Below are positions 1 to 5,615 of a stretch of 5,683 bases of DNA, piece after piece; within the stretch, counting starts at the first letter, position 1, and each line of letters starts with the position of its first letter. The position numbers were made by a program, and so were the translations under genes. The DNA is from an uncultured Clostridia bacterium (GTDB lineage: Bacteria; Bacillota; Clostridia; Oscillospirales; Ruminococcaceae). The notes under the pieces were generated by a model. It did not search any database and was not told the DNA's origin. It was given only the letters and a program-made list of their open reading frames with translations. Location: assembly GCA_947177545.1 (NCBI GenBank), contig CAMWVF010000089.1:1-5683 (forward strand), read 5' to 3'.

Positions 1-70
1 AATGAGTAAAACTAATCCTTTTAAATCCTAAAATAAGGAATTTCTTAAAAAAAATTACAAAAGCACTTCT

Positions 71-703
71 GTGAATTCATATTTGATTTCGCTGAACAGG
101 TATTTAAAATGGCTTGAAAGGGACGACCTATGCGTCTCTCTCATCAGGTGTCAGAGAAAATATTTTACGCCCGCGGAGCTGACCCTGAGCGATTACAGAG
201 CCATGCTTAAATTTGCCGAAAAAAGCGGTCAGACCAAGTGGTATTTGATTATGCGCTGTCTCGGAAGCATGGGTATAAGGGTGGGGGAGCTTAAATTTAT
301 TACATATGAAGCAGTGCTTTCCGGAAATGCAGAAATATTTTTTAAGTCGAAGCTGCGGACTATTCTTATTCCCGCAGGGCTTCAGGGAGAGCTTTTATAT
401 TTCTGTCAAGGCTGCGGGACAGAGGCGGGTACGGTCTTTATGAACAAAAGCGGCACCGCTCCAATTGACGTGTCGGTGATATGGCGCAATCTAAAAAAAA
501 TCGCAATTGGCGCGAATATTGAAAAATCAAAGGTTTATCCGCATAATTTCCGCCATATGTTTGCGCGGATATACATGAACGAATATCACGACATTGCCGA
601 GCTTGCGGATATTCTGGGACACAGCTCTATTGAAACCACAAGGCTTTATACAAAATCCTCCAAGGAAAATCAGCGCATAAGGCTGGACAGTCTTAATCTT
701 TGA
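71..703 (+). CDS. Tyrosine recombinase / site-specific integrase (XerC/D-like), N-terminus truncated or uncertain
   Basis: This gene encodes the catalytic domain of a tyrosine recombinase, which cuts and rejoins DNA at short inverted-arm sites through a covalent phosphotyrosine. Counting from the GTG at 71, the visible active-site residues are Arg70 (GIRVGEL), a Lys in the beta-hairpin (Lys92 or Lys94, KSKLRT), His158 and Arg161 (PHNFRH), His184 (LGHSS) and Tyr193 (TTRLYT), so the catalytic set is complete. The N-terminal core-binding domain is only partly present. Recognisable sequence (FLKKNYKSTSVNSYL) continues upstream of the GTG to about position 32, where an in-frame TAA (29-31) stops it; an in-frame ATG lies at 2. 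The GTG has no clear Shine-Dalgarno. The gene is either 5'-truncated or a short FimB/FimE-sized enzyme (about 200 aa) with an unusual start. It ends 10 bp before an inverted repeat, which suggests it acts on the adjacent switch. Confidence 0.78.
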   Translation: MNSYLISLNRYLKWLERDDLCVSLIRCQRKYFTPAELTLSDYRAMLKFAEKSGQTKWYLIMRCLGSMGIRVGELKFITYEAVLSGNAEIFFKSKLRTILIPAGLQGELLYFCQGCGTEAGTVFMNKSGTAPIDVSVIWRNLKKIAIGANIEKSKVYPHNFRHMFARIYMNEYHDIAELADILGHSSIETTRLYTKSSKENQRIRLDSLNL

Positions 704-713
704 TTTATAAAAT

Positions 714-733
714 GCAATATAATACAACATTAT
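714..733 (+). repeat. Left inverted repeat / probable recombination site
   Basis: GCAATATAATACAACATTAT matches the reverse complement of 939-958 at 18 of 20 positions, with 12 contiguous matches at 722-733. It has the form of a tyrosine-recombinase core site: arms ATAAT and ATTAT in opposite orientation around a 5-bp asymmetric spacer ACAAC. Because the arms are nearly symmetric, the same region also shares a 15-bp direct repeat (709-723 with 929-943). The spacer, which is reversed at the other site, is what sets orientation. Confidence 0.72.
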
Positions 734-747
734 TTTTTATTTGTCAA
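719..747 (-). promoter_or_regulatory. Leftward sigma-A-type promoter inside the invertible segment
   Basis: On the minus strand there is a perfect -35 box TTGACA (747 to 742), a 17-nt spacer and a -10 box TATTAT (724 to 719, 5/6 to consensus). As written it would start transcription near 712 and run leftward, antisense to the 3' end of the recombinase gene. The -35 box lies inside the segment and the -10 box overlaps the left repeat. After inversion the -35 box would be joined to the TATAAT of the right repeat. Confidence 0.72.
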
Positions 748-791
748 TGGCTTTTTAGAAAAAATATTTTAATTTACACAAATTTCACATT

Positions 792-828
792 TGCTCTCAA
801 CGGATATATTTCCGTGAGGGCATTTTTT
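792..828 (+). terminator. Rho-independent terminator facing the operon
   Basis: The stem TGCTCTC (792-798) pairs with GAGGGCA (816-822), with one T-G wobble. After a single bulged A at 799, ACGGA (800-804) pairs with TCCGT (811-815). The loop is six nucleotides and the stem is followed by six T (823-828). It ends rightward transcripts about 90 bp after the recombinase stop. The opposite strand lacks a T tract, so it is one-directional. As it lies inside the putative invertible segment, it would insulate the operon only in the orientation shown. Confidence 0.85.
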
Positions 829-844
829 ATTTGTATTTTTAGAG

Positions 845-883
845 TGTGTTGGCGCTGCCGAGCATTTTGGCAGCGCCAATATA
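845..883. repeat. Long GC-rich inverted repeat / hairpin
   Basis: TTGGCGCTGCC (849-859) is perfectly complementary to GGCAGCGCCAA (869-879) around a 9-nt loop. Pairing can extend outward to 845 and 883 with two G-U pairs, giving 15 bp. There is no T tract on either strand, so it is not an ordinary terminator. It lies in the middle of the candidate invertible segment and is far more GC-rich than its surroundings. It could be a protein-binding or cruciform site, or a structured RNA; its function is unknown. Confidence 0.65.
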
Positions 884-938
884 CCTCAAGTTATACTGTC
901 TGTTTTAGGCAAAATTTTTTATACGAAAAAAATGCAAT

Positions 939-958
939 ATAATGTTGTATAATATGGC
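939..958 (-). repeat. Right inverted repeat / probable recombination site
   Basis: ATAATGTTGTATAATATGGC is the partner of the left repeat, with 12 contiguous bases (939-950) complementary to 722-733. As a core site it reads GCAATATAAT (934-943), spacer GTTGT (944-948), ATAATATGGC (949-958). Its 10-bp arms are inverted copies at 8 of 10 positions. The spacer is the reverse complement of the left one (ACAAC), the arrangement that yields inversion and not deletion. Confidence 0.72.
948..953 (+). promoter_or_regulatory. Orphan -10 box of the operon promoter (no -35 in this orientation)
   Basis: A perfect TATAAT faces the operon within the right repeat; a second TATAAT overlaps the repeat at 938-943. 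Neither has a recognisable -35 at 16-18 nt (gaaaaa at 925-930 and tttttt at 915-920). The 948-953 box becomes a full consensus promoter if the segment inverts, with predicted transcription start near 960 and a leader of about 180 nt. In the present state it should be weak or silent. Confidence 0.55.
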
Positions 959-1010
959 TATGGTACCAAAAACAAGGTAAGGGAGAGGATAAAAATGTGG
1001 TCTTGACCGC

Positions 1011-1139: not shown

Positions 1140-2096
1140 ATGTATAATCCTGCAAATGAAGTATCGTCAATTAATTTCAGCGCAATTATCGGCGGCGCGC
1201 TTAACGCGGTTGTAAACGCTCAGAAGGAGTCCGCAGAGACAACGGTCAATTTTGTAAGACAGGTAGGCTTTATGCCCGGAAAGCTTGACGAAAACGGACG
1301 TGAAACAGGCATAGGCGATCCCATATGCGTTTCGTTCTCATACGACAAGGAGGTTTCTCCCGCTCACACCACAGAGAGCAGGGAGTTCCGAATAGAGGTC
1401 ATGGACGGCGGTTCGGGCTACAAGGACGCAAACAATATTGTTCTTAAAATCGGAGACATTGATCTTGACGCAAACGTTATGGTCGAGGACGGCAAAATTG
1501 TCGGCGCGGTTCTTAACGCAGAACCAACAGGCGACGACATTAAAAATAATGCGGAAATCAAAGTTACCGAAGAAAACGGCGGCAATAAAGCTAAGCTTGT
1601 TCTTAAAGTCGTGGATGAGGGAAAGCTTTCCCCCGCGCTGTATCAGAAGATGCGCATAGACGTGCCTATTCTGACTATGATGCCTATTCCCTTTATCAAG
1701 ATCGACAATACGGATATTGAATTCAACGTCAAGATCAATTCCGTTTCGACGACTGAAACCAAGGATACCACAAACAGCAGCGTCAAGAGCGACAGCAATT
1801 TCAGCTACAAGGGATTTGGCATCAAGGCCGGGACAACGCTTAACGCGTCGGTTTCAAATCAGAAGTCCACAAGCAGCAATGAGACCGTTAAAAAGGATTA
1901 CTCTCTTAACATAAAGGTACACGCTGTTCAGGACGATATGCCCGCAGGTATGGCAAAAATACTTGATATCCTTGAGGAGACCATTTCCACAAAGGCTGTT
2001 TCAAGTCCTGCCGCCAAGGAGGCTCTTACCGACGAAAATAGTGCGAAGAAGTCCGATAATTCGTCACAATCAAACGAAGCTTCCGAAAACAAATAA
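1140..2096 (+). CDS. DUF2589 domain-containing protein with an inserted beta module
   Basis: This is a 318-aa member of the uncharacterised DUF2589 family. The family N-terminus is clear at residues 11-44 (INFSAIIGGALNAVVNAQ followed by TTVNFVRQVGF). The central strand motif is at about 171-202 (VPILTMMPIPFIKIDN), followed by a Ser/Thr/Lys-rich stretch typical of the family (200-250). The closing segment is at 252-285 (DYSLNIKVHAV followed by MPAGMAKILDIL). Residues about 84-158 interrupt the domain with a Gly/Asp-rich module beginning GGSGYKDANN that resembles repeats found in phage and surface fibre proteins. The last 33 residues are a low-complexity Ser/Asn/Lys/Glu tail. There is no signal peptide or membrane segment, so the protein is made in the cytoplasm. 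The start is set by AGGAGG at 1127-1132, 7 nt before the ATG. It is the first gene of the operon; its function is unknown. Confidence 0.88.
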   Translation: MYNPANEVSSINFSAIIGGALNAVVNAQKESAETTVNFVRQVGFMPGKLDENGRETGIGDPICVSFSYDKEVSPAHTTESREFRIEVMDGGSGYKDANNIVLKIGDIDLDANVMVEDGKIVGAVLNAEPTGDDIKNNAEIKVTEENGGNKAKLVLKVVDEGKLSPALYQKMRIDVPILTMMPIPFIKIDNTDIEFNVKINSVSTTETKDTTNSSVKSDSNFSYKGFGIKAGTTLNASVSNQKSTSSNETVKKDYSLNIKVHAVQDDMPAGMAKILDILEETISTKAVSSPAAKEALTDENSAKKSDNSSQSNEASENK

Positions 2097-2174: not shown

Positions 2175-3020
2175 ATGGTTAAATTAAGTGAATTTATAGG
2201 AGAACTCGTATCGGATATTTCGGACGCGAGAAGAATTGCCGATACAAATTCGGCGGAGCTTAGTCAAAGCTACCATGCAGACCCGTTTTTAAAGGGTATG
2301 CCCGTGCCGCACTATACTATTCAGGAGGCGGAGATAAAGGTTCCCGTTTCGGTAAACAGAGTGGTTTCTTACAAACAAAATAACGATTTCCTGGTTACGC
2401 TTATTTTAAGCACCGTCAAGCTGAAACTGCCGCAGCTTCTGACAAACAAGCTTATGGAGAATTACATCAAAAAAAGGGAAAAGGAGCAGTATGAGAAGAA
2501 GCTTCAGGCGGCTGCCGACGCAGTTACCGATATGCAGCTAAACGATGTAAATATGACGTTTGAAAATCTTGACGACAAGACCAAGGACGATCTGCGGCTG
2601 CTTTATGCAAACAAGTCCAACGATATTACCGACCTGCTTGCCGTTGATATGAGAGATTTTCTTAACTCTGCGAATTTTGACGTGATCAAGCTTCTTGATA
2701 TAAGGGATAAGCTTATTGATATGCTTACGCGGATAATGGCTGATAAGCTTGCGGATATTGACGATGAAAAAAAGCCTGTTTCTGAGGAGGCTCTCCCTGC
2801 TCTTGTGGCGGAGATCGGCACGGAAATGTTCTTTGAATTTGCGCAGAAATCCGAAAGCAACAAGGGAATATTTGTTGACCCCGGCACAGGGAAGCTCAAC
2901 GAATATTTTGCAAAGGACAATCTCATGTTCCTTAGCTTAAAGGTCAAAGAGCAGGATTTGGATATAGTTATTGAGAACGACGGCAGCGCGGGCACACAGA
3001 GGTTCCTGTCGCTTAATTGA
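2175..3020 (+). CDS. DUF2589-related companion protein, function unknown
   Basis: This 281-aa cytoplasmic protein has no signal peptide. An amphipathic N-terminal helix (residues 4-33) leads into a beta segment at 42-63 (MPVPHYTIQEAEIKVPVSV) that aligns with residues 181-202 of the preceding DUF2589 protein. Residues 90-200 are charged and mostly helical (for example KKREKEQYEKKLQAA), with coiled-coil character. A C-terminal beta segment (252-281, LSLKVKEQDLDIVIEND) ends the protein. The two proteins therefore look like distant relatives that may assemble together. An in-frame TGA at 2166-2168 rules out any earlier start. The Shine-Dalgarno is either AAGGAG at 2156-2161, rather far at 13 nt, or the weaker AAAGG nearer the ATG. 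It lies 78 bp after gene 1 in the same operon. Confidence 0.82.
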   Translation: MVKLSEFIGELVSDISDARRIADTNSAELSQSYHADPFLKGMPVPHYTIQEAEIKVPVSVNRVVSYKQNNDFLVTLILSTVKLKLPQLLTNKLMENYIKKREKEQYEKKLQAAADAVTDMQLNDVNMTFENLDDKTKDDLRLLYANKSNDITDLLAVDMRDFLNSANFDVIKLLDIRDKLIDMLTRIMADKLADIDDEKKPVSEEALPALVAEIGTEMFFEFAQKSESNKGIFVDPGTGKLNEYFAKDNLMFLSLKVKEQDLDIVIENDGSAGTQRFLSLN

Positions 3021-3037: not shown

Positions 3038-3595
3038 ATGATCCTTATTCCAATTATAGAAAGCATGGACGAAATACTTAACGGTATGCCGAAGCTGATA
3101 GACAGGCTGGAGAACAGCCAAGGCAGTCTTATTGAGGACTGCGCGGGATTTGTTTCGCGGCTTGAGGGAGTTTCGGAAAAATACCGTTTTCCCATAACGG
3201 GACTGCTTTCCGTAATTAGGGGGAAAATACTTTGCGGCGCACCGGCTGACCCTGCCGTAAGCCTGTCAAGGAAAGATAAAAAGGCGGCTGAAAAGAGGTA
3301 CATGATAACCCAGCTCGAAAACGCGTACAACTGCGTAAGTGAATATCTTGACGGCGAGCGAAGGATCATAAGCGAGTGCGAAAGGCTTGTGTGTCAGGTA
3401 TCGGCAAAGCTTGCTGCCGAGGGAGCTTTGCTTGATACTGCTCCCAAAGATATAAGCGGGAAGCTGCTGATAGGTCTTGCTGCCCGCGACACGGAGCTTA
3501 TGCCGATACTTGCCCATGTTATCGGACTTGCGGGCGCGCCCAATACAAATATATTATTTGAAAAAACAATGTCCCTTGCAGGGATAATAAATTGA
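3038..3595 (+). CDS. Hypothetical helical protein of the DUF2589 operon
   Basis: I do not recognise this 185-aa protein. It appears mainly alpha-helical: N-terminal helix 4-30 (IPIIESMDEILNGMPKLIDRL), a second helical stretch 31-66, a basic patch at 78-87 (RKDKKAAEKR), long helices 88-130, and a hydrophobic Gly/Ala-rich C-terminus (140-185, LLIGLAARDTELMPILAHVIGL). The C-terminal part is amphipathic and not a clear transmembrane segment. Five cysteines (35, 66, 99, 114, 119) are scattered without a metal-binding pattern. It follows the companion gene by 17 nt with a strong Shine-Dalgarno, so the two are probably co-translated and may be partners. An adaptor or assembly role is possible, but nothing in the sequence proves it. 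Confidence 0.75.
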   Translation: MILIPIIESMDEILNGMPKLIDRLENSQGSLIEDCAGFVSRLEGVSEKYRFPITGLLSVIRGKILCGAPADPAVSLSRKDKKAAEKRYMITQLENAYNCVSEYLDGERRIISECERLVCQVSAKLAAEGALLDTAPKDISGKLLIGLAARDTELMPILAHVIGLAGAPNTNILFEKTMSLAGIIN

Positions 3596-3650: not shown

Positions 3651-4652
3651 ATGAAAAATATTATTTTTATGCCGTTTATTAACGACGTTGACCACGGACA
3701 GAAATGGAGAAACGACCTTGAAAGAGACTTCCTTGCGGCAGATGGAAGTGCGCTTACCAGAGAAATAAAAACTATTCGCGAAAAGAAGGGAGATACTAAA
3801 ACATACGCTGATGAAAAAGACTATTATGCCGATCTTCACACAAAAAAATCCGAACGTCAGAAAATGTGGATAAACTGTCTGATCGAACATACGGCGGAAT
3901 TATTCAGAGGGTATCTTGACCGTCAGAAAAGCGAGGACGCGGCTTTCACCAAAAAAACAGTTGTCTGTGCGCTTCCCGAATTTTTCTGGCGCGATATAAA
4001 CGACAATGACAAACATACCGATGATATCAACTTTTACCATAAACCACTTTATCTTGAAACGGCGCGTGATATTCTTACGGAGGATAATGCTCTTATGGGG
4101 CTTACTGAGGATTATCCCAACATGATATTTTTTGCGGGCACTGTAATGTGGAAAATAATAAATCCCGAAAATCATAAAAACGAGGAGATATTGAATTCGC
4201 TGATAGTTTATGCAGAAGGAAAATACAAGGAAACGCTCACCAAGCATAATGTTTCATTTATCGACGGGTTTTACGACGCAAATCAACGCTTAGTAAAGAA
4301 TAAGGTCGGAAAAGGCGGAAACGACGGAAACCTTGTCACGAAATTCAACGGGCTTGATTTTACATATGATATCTGTCTGGATTTTATGCACAGAGCCAAT
4401 CAAAATGACTTTAATGAACGGCCCCGTCCGTTGTCAGCAAAGTTTTGTTCAAAAAAAGGGATAAGTAGCATCGATGTAAATGTTCTTATAGCGGCAGGTA
4501 TGCCCGTTAACGGTAAATATATCGAGGAAAACACATTTTCAAGCGTCTTTCTAAGATGTGACGGTTTATGCAAACCTTACGGACAGGCTTTGATAAGGTC
4601 ATGCGGAAGTGACGGAGCGGCTGTAAAGCTTATTGAGATCAATCCGCAATAA
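3651..4652 (+). CDS. Probable nitrilase-superfamily (carbon-nitrogen hydrolase fold) protein
   Basis: The 333-aa product shows a plausible, divergent nitrilase triad. Glu110 lies in a strand-turn typical of the family (VVCALPEFFW). Lys198 follows a strand and a short turn (NSLIVYAEGKYKETLTKHN), and Cys242 is in LDFTYDICLDF, matching the family pattern of hydrophobic residues then ICxD. MIFFAGTVMW (158-167) fits the strand that usually lies between Glu and Lys, and IDVNVLIAAGMP (274-285) the strand after the Cys. Such enzymes hydrolyse or condense amides and nitriles through a Cys thioester; the substrate here cannot be told. Residues about 35-100 form a charged extra segment before the Glu. 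There is no signal peptide. AAAGGAG sits 8 nt before the ATG. The lysis genes follow 22 bp downstream. The assignment rests on motif order alone. Confidence 0.6.
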   Translation: MKNIIFMPFINDVDHGQKWRNDLERDFLAADGSALTREIKTIREKKGDTKTYADEKDYYADLHTKKSERQKMWINCLIEHTAELFRGYLDRQKSEDAAFTKKTVVCALPEFFWRDINDNDKHTDDINFYHKPLYLETARDILTEDNALMGLTEDYPNMIFFAGTVMWKIINPENHKNEEILNSLIVYAEGKYKETLTKHNVSFIDGFYDANQRLVKNKVGKGGNDGNLVTKFNGLDFTYDICLDFMHRANQNDFNERPRPLSAKFCSKKGISSIDVNVLIAAGMPVNGKYIEENTFSSVFLRCDGLCKPYGQALIRSCGSDGAAVKLIEINPQ

Positions 4653-4674: not shown

Positions 4675-5418
4675 ATGGAATTCAAAGGAATTGATGTTTC
4701 AAAGCACAACGGCAGAATAGACTGGGAAAAAGTCAAAAAATCGGGAGTTGAATTTGCGATACTGCGGGCAGGCTTCGGAAGAGAAAATCCGCGTCAGGTC
4801 GACGTTCAATTTGAGAGGAATTACAGCGAATGCAGGATGTTGGGGATACCTGTGGGAGCATATCATTACAGCTATGCAAAAAATCCCGACGGCGCTCAAA
4901 AGGAGCTTGATTTTTTCCTGAAGCTCATAGACGGAAAACAGTTTGATTATCCGCTGTGCTTCGATATTGAGGACGAGTCCTTAAACGGGATATCTGAAAA
5001 GGTTCTTACCGATAACGTTCTCACCTTTTGCAAAGGTCTTGAGGAAAGGGGATATTATGCGGCTGTGTACTGCAATATGGACTGGCTTAAAAACCGTCTG
5101 GAGCATGACCGTCTCAAGGATATTGATCTTTGGCTTGCGTACTGGAGCAACGCTCGCAGCGAAAATATAAAAGTGGGTATGTGGCAATACTCCGAAAAAG
5201 GTCAGATAGACGGCATTTCAGGAGATGTCGACCTGGATATTGCTTATAAAAATTATCCCGAGATCATAAGATCAAAGGGTATGAATAACTTCGGCAAAAA
5301 TCACAAGTATGTAGTTGCCGCCGAAAAAAGCGGCATGGACCTTGCCGAAGCGGAGGCGCTTTCTTCCCGCCTGAGAGACCTTAATATGTCAGTTTCCAAA
5401 AGGGAGGACAGGCAATGA
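4675..5418 (+). CDS. GH25 family lysozyme (endolysin, N-acetylmuramidase)
   Basis: This is a glycoside hydrolase family 25 muramidase that cleaves the MurNAc-GlcNAc bond of peptidoglycan. The 247-aa protein shows the family signature GIDVSKHNGRIDW (residues 5-17, Asp7), ILRAGFG (29-35), GAYHYSYA (61-68), the catalytic DxE pair Asp97/Glu99 in CFDIEDES, VYCNMDWL (131-138), LWLAYW (152-157), MWQYS (169-173) and the closing DVDLDIAY (184-191). The GH25 domain ends near residue 195. The remaining 50 residues (KYVVAAEKSGMDLAEAEALSS region) resemble a small SPOR-like repeat and may bind the cell wall. There is no signal peptide, so it depends on the overlapping holin for release. Start at ATG 4675 is chosen over TTG 4633 because GGAGGTG at 4663-4669 is well placed and the domain begins just after it. 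Confidence 0.94.
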   Translation: MEFKGIDVSKHNGRIDWEKVKKSGVEFAILRAGFGRENPRQVDVQFERNYSECRMLGIPVGAYHYSYAKNPDGAQKELDFFLKLIDGKQFDYPLCFDIEDESLNGISEKVLTDNVLTFCKGLEERGYYAAVYCNMDWLKNRLEHDRLKDIDLWLAYWSNARSENIKVGMWQYSEKGQIDGISGDVDLDIAYKNYPEIIRSKGMNNFGKNHKYVVAAEKSGMDLAEAEALSSRLRDLNMSVSKREDRQ

Positions 5419-5615
5419 ATGAAGCATTAAAAAAATGGTTTAAGGCGGCGATGTGCCGTGCGCTCAAAACATTTTTTCAGAGCGGAGCTGCTTCGATGTG
5501 CGTGCTTTCTGTAGTTAAACAGTTCAGCTGGGAAACAACTGTCTGTACGGCAATTTTGGCCGGACTGTTTTCGCTGCTCACAAGCTCTTTGAGCTTTCCC
5601 GATATACCAAAATAA
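5415..5615 (+). CDS. Small r1t-type phage holin
   Basis: This 66-aa membrane protein would form pores in the cytoplasmic membrane and let the endolysin reach the wall. An amphipathic basic N-terminus (KKWFKAAMCRALKTFFQSG, residues 6-24) leads into a first hydrophobic segment (about 20-36). A short turn (KQFSWE) leads into a second segment (41-58, TTVCTAILAGLFSLLTS), and the protein ends in a short FPDIPK tail. This pattern, with RALKTF and the AxLAGxxSLLTSL ending, matches the r1t holin family. The ATG overlaps the lysozyme stop codon (ATGA at 5415-5418), indicating translational coupling. GGGAGG at 5402-5407 lies 7 nt upstream. It is the last gene of the visible operon. Confidence 0.85.
   Translation: MNEALKKWFKAAMCRALKTFFQSGAASMCVLSVVKQFSWETTVCTAILAGLFSLLTSSLSFPDIPK

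Follow-up and report, generated by a model that had tools for sequence, protein, structure and literature searches.

Introduction

In the fimE-fimS-fimA system of Escherichia coli type 1 fimbriae the gene of a tyrosine recombinase immediately precedes a short invertible segment, which contains the whole promoter and is directed at an operon. A promoter can also arise at the circle junctions of insertion sequences, where recombination joins a −35 and a −10 box into a strong promoter. In some of the RecV switches of Clostridioides difficile a terminator takes part. Invertible promoters accompanied by tyrosine recombinases are well known, as documented in PMC5903667, PMC11892184, PMC11868660 and PMC4747536, and the orientational control in fim appears as a cited title in PMC2845655. 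PMC11892184 links flipping invertons in Clostridia to tyrosine-type recombinases and gives orientation shifts measured over time for inverton group 139, and PMC5903667 describes RecV as acting on more than one switch.

The window analyzed here, which denotes the whole stretch of DNA, is one complete contig of 5,683 nt from a 55%-complete draft genome. A tyrosine recombinase gene, of which the 3' part is present, is followed by an intergenic region and subsequently by an operon in the order DUF2589-orf3-orf4-orf5-GH25-holin-like (Table 1). A first-pass annotation had interpreted the intergenic region as an invertible promoter switch of this operon. We consider it likely that the segment 723-949 represents a recombinase-driven invertible promoter with the crossover placed inside the promoter itself. 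The sites, boxes, spacing, terminator-like hairpin and gene order are observed, as is their conservation in six genera; we infer that the segment inverts, that the recombinase acts at these sites, that either state is transcribed and that a phenotype results.

Table 1. Features of the window with positions, strands and supporting details.
Feature	Position	Strand	Details
Tyrosine recombinase, C-terminal part, catalytic domain	32-703	+	Pfam Phage_integrase, E 4e-19
Putative left recombination site	711-741	+	outer arm 711-722, centre TACAACA 723-729, inner arm 730-741
−10 TATTAT of the leftward promoter (as assembled)	719-724	−	in the left site
−35 TTGACA	742-747	−	carried by the segment, within TTTGTCAA, which six genera share unchanged
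Putative intrinsic terminator in the segment	792-830	+	hairpin 792-822, T run 823-828; fold −18.3 kcal/mol
Putative right recombination site	931-961	+	inner arm 931-942, centre TGTTGTA 943-949, outer arm 950-961
−10 TATAAT facing the operon	948-953	+	last four bases outside the common centre
Palindrome TGGTACCA	961-968	+	at the expected transcription start; first base 8 nt downstream of the −10
DUF2589 protein, operon gene 1	1140-2096	+	Pfam PF11655, E 1.3e-24
orf3	2175-3020	+	kept in the operon; window protein without Pfam family
orf4	3038-3595	+	kept in the operon; without Pfam family
orf5	3651-4652	+	predicted divergent nitrilase-superfamily (carbon-nitrogen hydrolase) fold
GH25 lysozyme-type wall hydrolase	4675-5418	+	Pfam PF01183, E 4e-35
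Small holin-like protein	5415-5615	+	PHROG 443 holin, E 3e-9; Pfam r1t holin just below cut-off

Putative recombination sites

The left repeat (714-733, GCAATATAATACAACATTAT) matches the reverse complement of the right repeat (939-958, GCCATATTATACAACATTAT) at 18 of 20 positions, which confirms the earlier count, and its core ATACAACATTAT has only two copies in the 1.89 Mb of the window's own genome, both at the site pair. Dinucleotide shuffling of the region 701-1139 reached an 18/20 repeat in 1 of 1000 cases, and a 12-nt exact arm alone in 37 of 1000. Taken by itself the repeat is only moderately improbable, unusual but not overwhelming.

Relatives were sought with the DUF2589 protein, and with the recombinase among 396 sampled family genomes. 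The DUF2589 protein occurs in six of these genomes, in all six with the recombinase beside it. Five further loci besides the window (L006, L007, L008, L009 and L026) have the recombinase just upstream of a DUF2589 operon, each of the six in another genus of the same family. The order is the same in 6/6 loci, with the recombinase directly upstream, the site pair and its inward TTTGTCAA in the middle and the target DUF2589 operon directly downstream, as in the gene order of the fimS type. The site pair between them matches at 18 of 20 positions in five loci and at 17 in L007, one short of the 18/20 that served as the repeat rule. The heptamer TACAACA is identical in all twelve sites. Further invariant across the six genera are, in the right site, the 20 nt AATGCAATATAATGTTGTAT, in the left site AAAATGCAA and TAATACAACA, and next to the left site TTTGTCAA; the remaining segment is mostly diverged in sequence and length (inner length 129-213 nt). 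No additional locus came from the genera of the five relatives (15, 71, 16, 20 and 29 genomes), searched with the site pattern or the DUF2589 protein.

An accidental repeat with promoter-like boxes in intergenic DNA might be suspected, as the region is AT-rich, exact arms of 12 nt arise in shuffled sequence with the frequency given above, and pattern matches with two mismatches found elsewhere look accidental, one of them standing before a tRNA-like gene. Against this explanation stand the single shuffle in a thousand that attained 18/20 and the recurrence of the layout in six genera despite a diverged spacer. This conservation refutes a chance origin in practice, in line with the original estimate that coincidence is unlikely.

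The repeat is, in our reading, better described as two candidate sites of the recombination type, with a common centre of 7 nt and unequal arms of 12 nt. Compared to the arm consensus, the left site of the window has 12/12 matches in its outer and 9/12 in its inner arm, and the right outer arm is degenerate with 8/12. Averaged over the six loci, the left site has 11.5 of 12 matches in its outer and 9.7 in its inner arm, and the right site 12.0 in its inner and 6.5 in its outer arm, compared to 3.4 for random 12-mers nearby. The poorest half-site is thus the right outer arm, on which the sequence of promoter and start site is superimposed.

Promoter boxes and putative terminator

As assembled, the minus-strand TTGACA (747-742) is followed after 17 nt by TATTAT (724-719); the enclosed leftward −35 and its partner in the left repeat are thus both present as described before. 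This leftward promoter is the best of five promoter-like sites in 640-1160, with 11 of 12 matches; shuffled sequence contains 2.6 such sites on average. The TATAAT facing the operon is left without a −35 that passes the promoter scan of the same region, as the first-pass annotation had stated, and its central claim, that a flip creates TTGACA-17-TATAAT with both hexamers perfect, was reproduced by scripted inversion. The two boxes are separated by the centre TGTTGTA (943-949), which covers the first two bases of the −10; the last four bases of TATAAT would remain unflipped because they are outside the shared centre. As the −35 would travel and most of the −10 would stay, a promoter would exist in either order, with a changed direction and a changed −10.

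The distance between the −35 and the −10 facing the recombinase is 17 nt in all six loci, the −10 being TATTAT in five and TATTAC in L008. Flipping in silico leads to an operon-facing TTGACA-17-TATAAT in five; in L008 the fixed −10 is TATTAT and not TATAAT, which is a point against the proposed switch. At the level of the sequence, an outward promoter that would change its target on inversion, with 17-nt spacing in both orders, was found in 6/6 loci.

A rule-based scan of 640-1160 detected no terminator, and the hairpins reported here were found by scripted folding. The putative terminator of the window points away from the recombinase as assembled, and a hairpin with T's in this direction occurs in 6/6 segments (−18 to −30 kcal/mol), compared to −5.6 kcal/mol or weaker for the best structures found on the other strand. 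The segment of the window additionally contains a GC-rich hairpin at 844-884 with no T run after it.

Two smaller elements are shared by the six genera. Five T's (749-755 in the window), a few bases inside TTTGTCAA, are invariant and read as an A-tract upstream of the −35 on the promoter strand, perhaps resembling an UP element. The dyad of the palindrome TGGTACCA is also kept, and the variant TGGTAATTACCA in L026 retains the symmetry; the flanking pair is A..T in L006 and L009, G..C in L007 and L008, A..A in the window and A..C around TGGTAATTACCA. A possible role as operator, with the palindrome as candidate site of a dimeric repressor, amounts to no more than a fair guess. The motif (A/G)TGGTA at 960-968 would also permit a leaderless mini-ORF.

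Proposed mechanism

In the OFF state, which is the order of the assemblies, the −35 would pair with the TATTAT of the left site, leading to leftward transcripts that are antisense to the recombinase gene at its 3' end, and the terminator of the segment would halt recombinase transcripts ahead of the operon. A flip would join the segment-borne −35 to the TATAAT that is fixed outside, so that in the ON state the promoter would fire as TTGACA-17-TATAAT into the DUF2589 operon. Because the terminator would be reversed in the ON state, transcription of the recombinase could also read through into the operon.

One may object that the region is a fixed one, in which nothing inverts and the recombinase, bound to both sites, serves as a looping repressor or autoregulator. 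This is consistent with the single order of all six assemblies and with the poor right outer arm (6.5/12 on average), as if recombination there were weakly selected. We nevertheless regard it as quite improbable, and several features argue against it: the −10 facing the operon is conserved in six genera though no −35 passes the scan as assembled, the partner −35 is positioned exactly at the mirror position in 6/6 loci, the 7-nt centre is identical in 12/12 sites as strand exchange would need, and the catalytic motifs are kept in the recombinase alignment.

Under the preferred reading, an invertible promoter, the OFF and the ON state would hold different site pairs, and the direction of switching could therefore be biased. 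An extreme form of such a bias would be a nearly one-way commitment switch, in which a flipped cell rarely flips back. On this view the four half-sites are unequal because promoter and crossover site share bases. The OFF state presents two mixed sites, and the ON state would present a near-perfect palindrome on the left and a doubly weak site on the right. With different site pairs, the reactions from OFF to ON and from ON to OFF would differ, similar to phage attachment sites. Rare one-way flipping would explain why 6/6 assemblies are OFF and, combined with a wall hydrolase operon, might amount to a rare, programmed and possibly sacrificial differentiation. We hold this version to be improbable.

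Orientation in available genomes

Six of six assemblies show the OFF order. With one assembled genome per species this indicates that OFF predominates or that ON was not assembled, and no more. An ON copy was not found in viral contigs by the DUF2589 protein and the exact site pattern, nor in 394 genomes of the order by the site pattern with two mismatches, a sample that includes two of the six known loci. Eight genomes matched in the latter search, two of them being known loci (the window's own genome and G035). Among the six others, L068 resembled an ON junction and was rejected, as by eye it stands before a tRNA-like gene. In none of these six was there an inverted partner above 14/20 within 500 nt. 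Weak matches of the switch within the window's own genome (L002, L003) were also discarded; they look like AT-rich resemblance.

The conserved layout in six genera and the repeats beside related recombinases strongly favor the proposed invertible promoter; the uniform order of all six assemblies, among which no inversion was observed, stands against it. For this reason phase variation of the DUF2589 operon is something we infer, and it is perhaps untrue for the window genome, in which the recombinase is truncated. Further points against the proposed switch are L030, a recombinase 58% identical and inside the window clade that has no such repeat in the sequence examined and no DUF2589 match in its genome, and the DUF2589 operons without such a repeat in G001, L010 and L011. 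The G001 locus (L061:4388-7575, same genus) comprises DUF2589, orf3, orf4 and GH25; there we detected no related recombinase, no 18/20 repeat and no orf5.

The recombinase

The recombinase frame is open from 32 to 700 (stop 701-703) with GTG at 71 as the first start codon, and ends 10 nt before the left repeat at 714, as noted before. It comprises 223 residues, or 210 if counted from the start codon, compared to 276-283 in the full-length relatives from five genera, to which it is 56-65% identical. The gene is accordingly N-terminally incomplete in the window, with a stop at 29-31 just before the frame; the first-pass annotation had omitted this. The sequence before position 35 is unlike the recombinase relatives, and bases 1-34 have no good counterpart elsewhere in 21 genomes of the genus (own and 20 others). 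The end of an insertion sequence was considered as a source of these bases; the same genomes gave weak and short matches only. The break may be an assembly fault because it lies within 34 nt of the end of a contig from a 55%-complete draft.

The catalytic motifs of tyrosine recombinases are kept in the recombinase alignment. An enzyme with these motifs adjoins the segment in all cases, full length in the five relatives and truncated in the window. The recombinase matched 122 plasmid records, all below 60% identity. In G005, a 99%-complete genome of the same genus without a DUF2589 match, we observed a decayed recombinase fragment (L060, contig 55, approximately 134-348, minus strand) that is 93% identical to that of the window over 60 residues; this may possibly reflect a loss event. 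In G085 a second short integrase-like frame (Phage_integrase; L065:4343-4612, minus) is located just upstream of the recombinase on the opposite strand.

With an incomplete recombinase gene, the window genome may have its switch stuck in the OFF state; the switch would then have worked in an ancestor and be dead or locked now, which is compatible with a working switch in the other five genera. The frame starting at 32 directly after a stop, the orphan bases 1-34 and the decayed fragment in G005 argue for it; the closeness of the break to the contig end with a possible assembly fault, the intact state of all cis elements in the window and the prospect of another recombinase acting in trans argue against it. 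We regard a locked switch in this one genome as a serious possibility, albeit one we tend not to favor.

The operon

A predicted nitrilase-superfamily fold was obtained for orf5, yet no Pfam family above the cut-off. The hallmark of this superfamily is an alpha-beta-beta-alpha fold together with a Glu-Lys-Cys triad. A wall hydrolase, either GH25 or CHAP, is present in 7/7 operons (the six with the switch layout and G001). In three genera a CHAP protein follows orf5 instead of GH25 (L063:8938-9540, L065:9071-9691, L066:9903-10499), so the same operon slot is occupied by different wall hydrolases. For the holin of the window no relative was found by blastp in the other six operons. The lysis operon proposed originally is thus supported in part.

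DUF2589, orf3, orf4 and orf5 gave nothing above noise in PADLOC, NCBIfam and PHROGs. For DUF2589, PDB sequences gave weak matches only (E 0.13 and above), the structure model was poor (pLDDT 49), and phages and plasmids contained one weak partial match each. In the literature searched, a single paper mentions DUF2589. Rfam had no hit on the window at the gathering score. In G035 an eCIS_core protein (Pfam PF13699; L064:7063-8943, minus) is encoded upstream of the recombinase and on the same strand.

More distant recombinases

The recombinases of L031-L053, next in similarity among the matches whose DNA was retrieved, are 39-45% identical, and in a midpoint-rooted tree a 100/100 branch divides them from the window clade. 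These 23 loci were scanned for inverted repeats, and 18 possess a private repeat beside the recombinase, with exact or nearly exact arms of 20-28 nt, 11-189 nt downstream of the recombinase match and enclosing 223-371 nt. As controls, dinucleotide-shuffled loci had 0/69 and other loci (L010-L020, 6.5-9.4 kb each) 2/11; L012-L020 are distant DUF2589 loci that served in this control and are outside the switch comparison. The rule found no repeat in L033, L034, L037, L041 and L048, of which L033 ends 43 nt past the match. The sites are near-identical pairs, many of them palindromes of the type ACATAAT-N-ATTATGT.

In 11 of the 18 loci a promoter-like site, defined by 10 or more matches out of 12, has its end 42-69 nt inside the segment exit; nine are directed towards the recombinase and two away from it (L044, L052), as expected if such segments turn. 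In several of the 18, promoter-like sites also occur farther inside or are absent. Together with the tree, the repeats in 18/23 loci place the window recombinase near enzymes that accompany invertible-looking segments. We further report these 18 as candidate invertible segments in this bacterial family.

Comparison with known systems

If the proposal holds, it describes a compact switch in which one strand exchange assembles a promoter, reverses a terminator and turns the promoter against its own recombinase gene. The cassette, possibly transferred, would have a scattered distribution over at least six genera of a single family. DUF2589 would gain a context open to test, namely an operon that may be phase-variable and encodes a nitrilase-like protein as well as a wall hydrolase, and the overlay of promoter and recombination site suggests a way to bias the direction of the switch.

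The distant group L031-L053 shares recombinase-adjacent inverted repeats, palindromic sites and promoter-like sites aimed outward. It differs in having two identical or near-identical sites, whereas according to the arm means the six-locus clade has unequal half-sites and no near-identical pair. In addition, a promoter-like site near the exit, where found (11/18), is wholly inside the segment, whereas most of the −10 falls beyond the segment in the six-locus clade.

A tyrosine recombinase that inverts short intergenic segments is the basis of the RecV switches of C. difficile, including cwpV. RecV serves more than one switch (PMC5903667), whereas the recombinase of the six-locus clade would have one site pair beside its gene, and a split promoter. 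Clostridia inverton group 139 and invertase group 35 are similar in that invertons stand beside tyrosine-type recombinases, as given in PMC11892184.

The circle-junction promoter is formed on excised circles and serves a transposase, in contrast to an inversion in place for the benefit of a cargo operon as proposed here. With fim the locus has in common the upstream recombinase, the operon-facing segment and one state that would send transcripts into the recombinase gene; sites and operon are different. The fimS promoter is wholly inside its segment, whereas at this locus the crossover centre sits between the two boxes and leaves most of the −10 outside the segment. Among the titles and abstract openings found for invertible promoters and crossover sites, none describes a promoter split by the crossover, which is weak evidence of absence. 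What appears to be new compared to the known invertible promoters is thus a crossover inside the promoter, by which the −35 would flip and the −10 stay.
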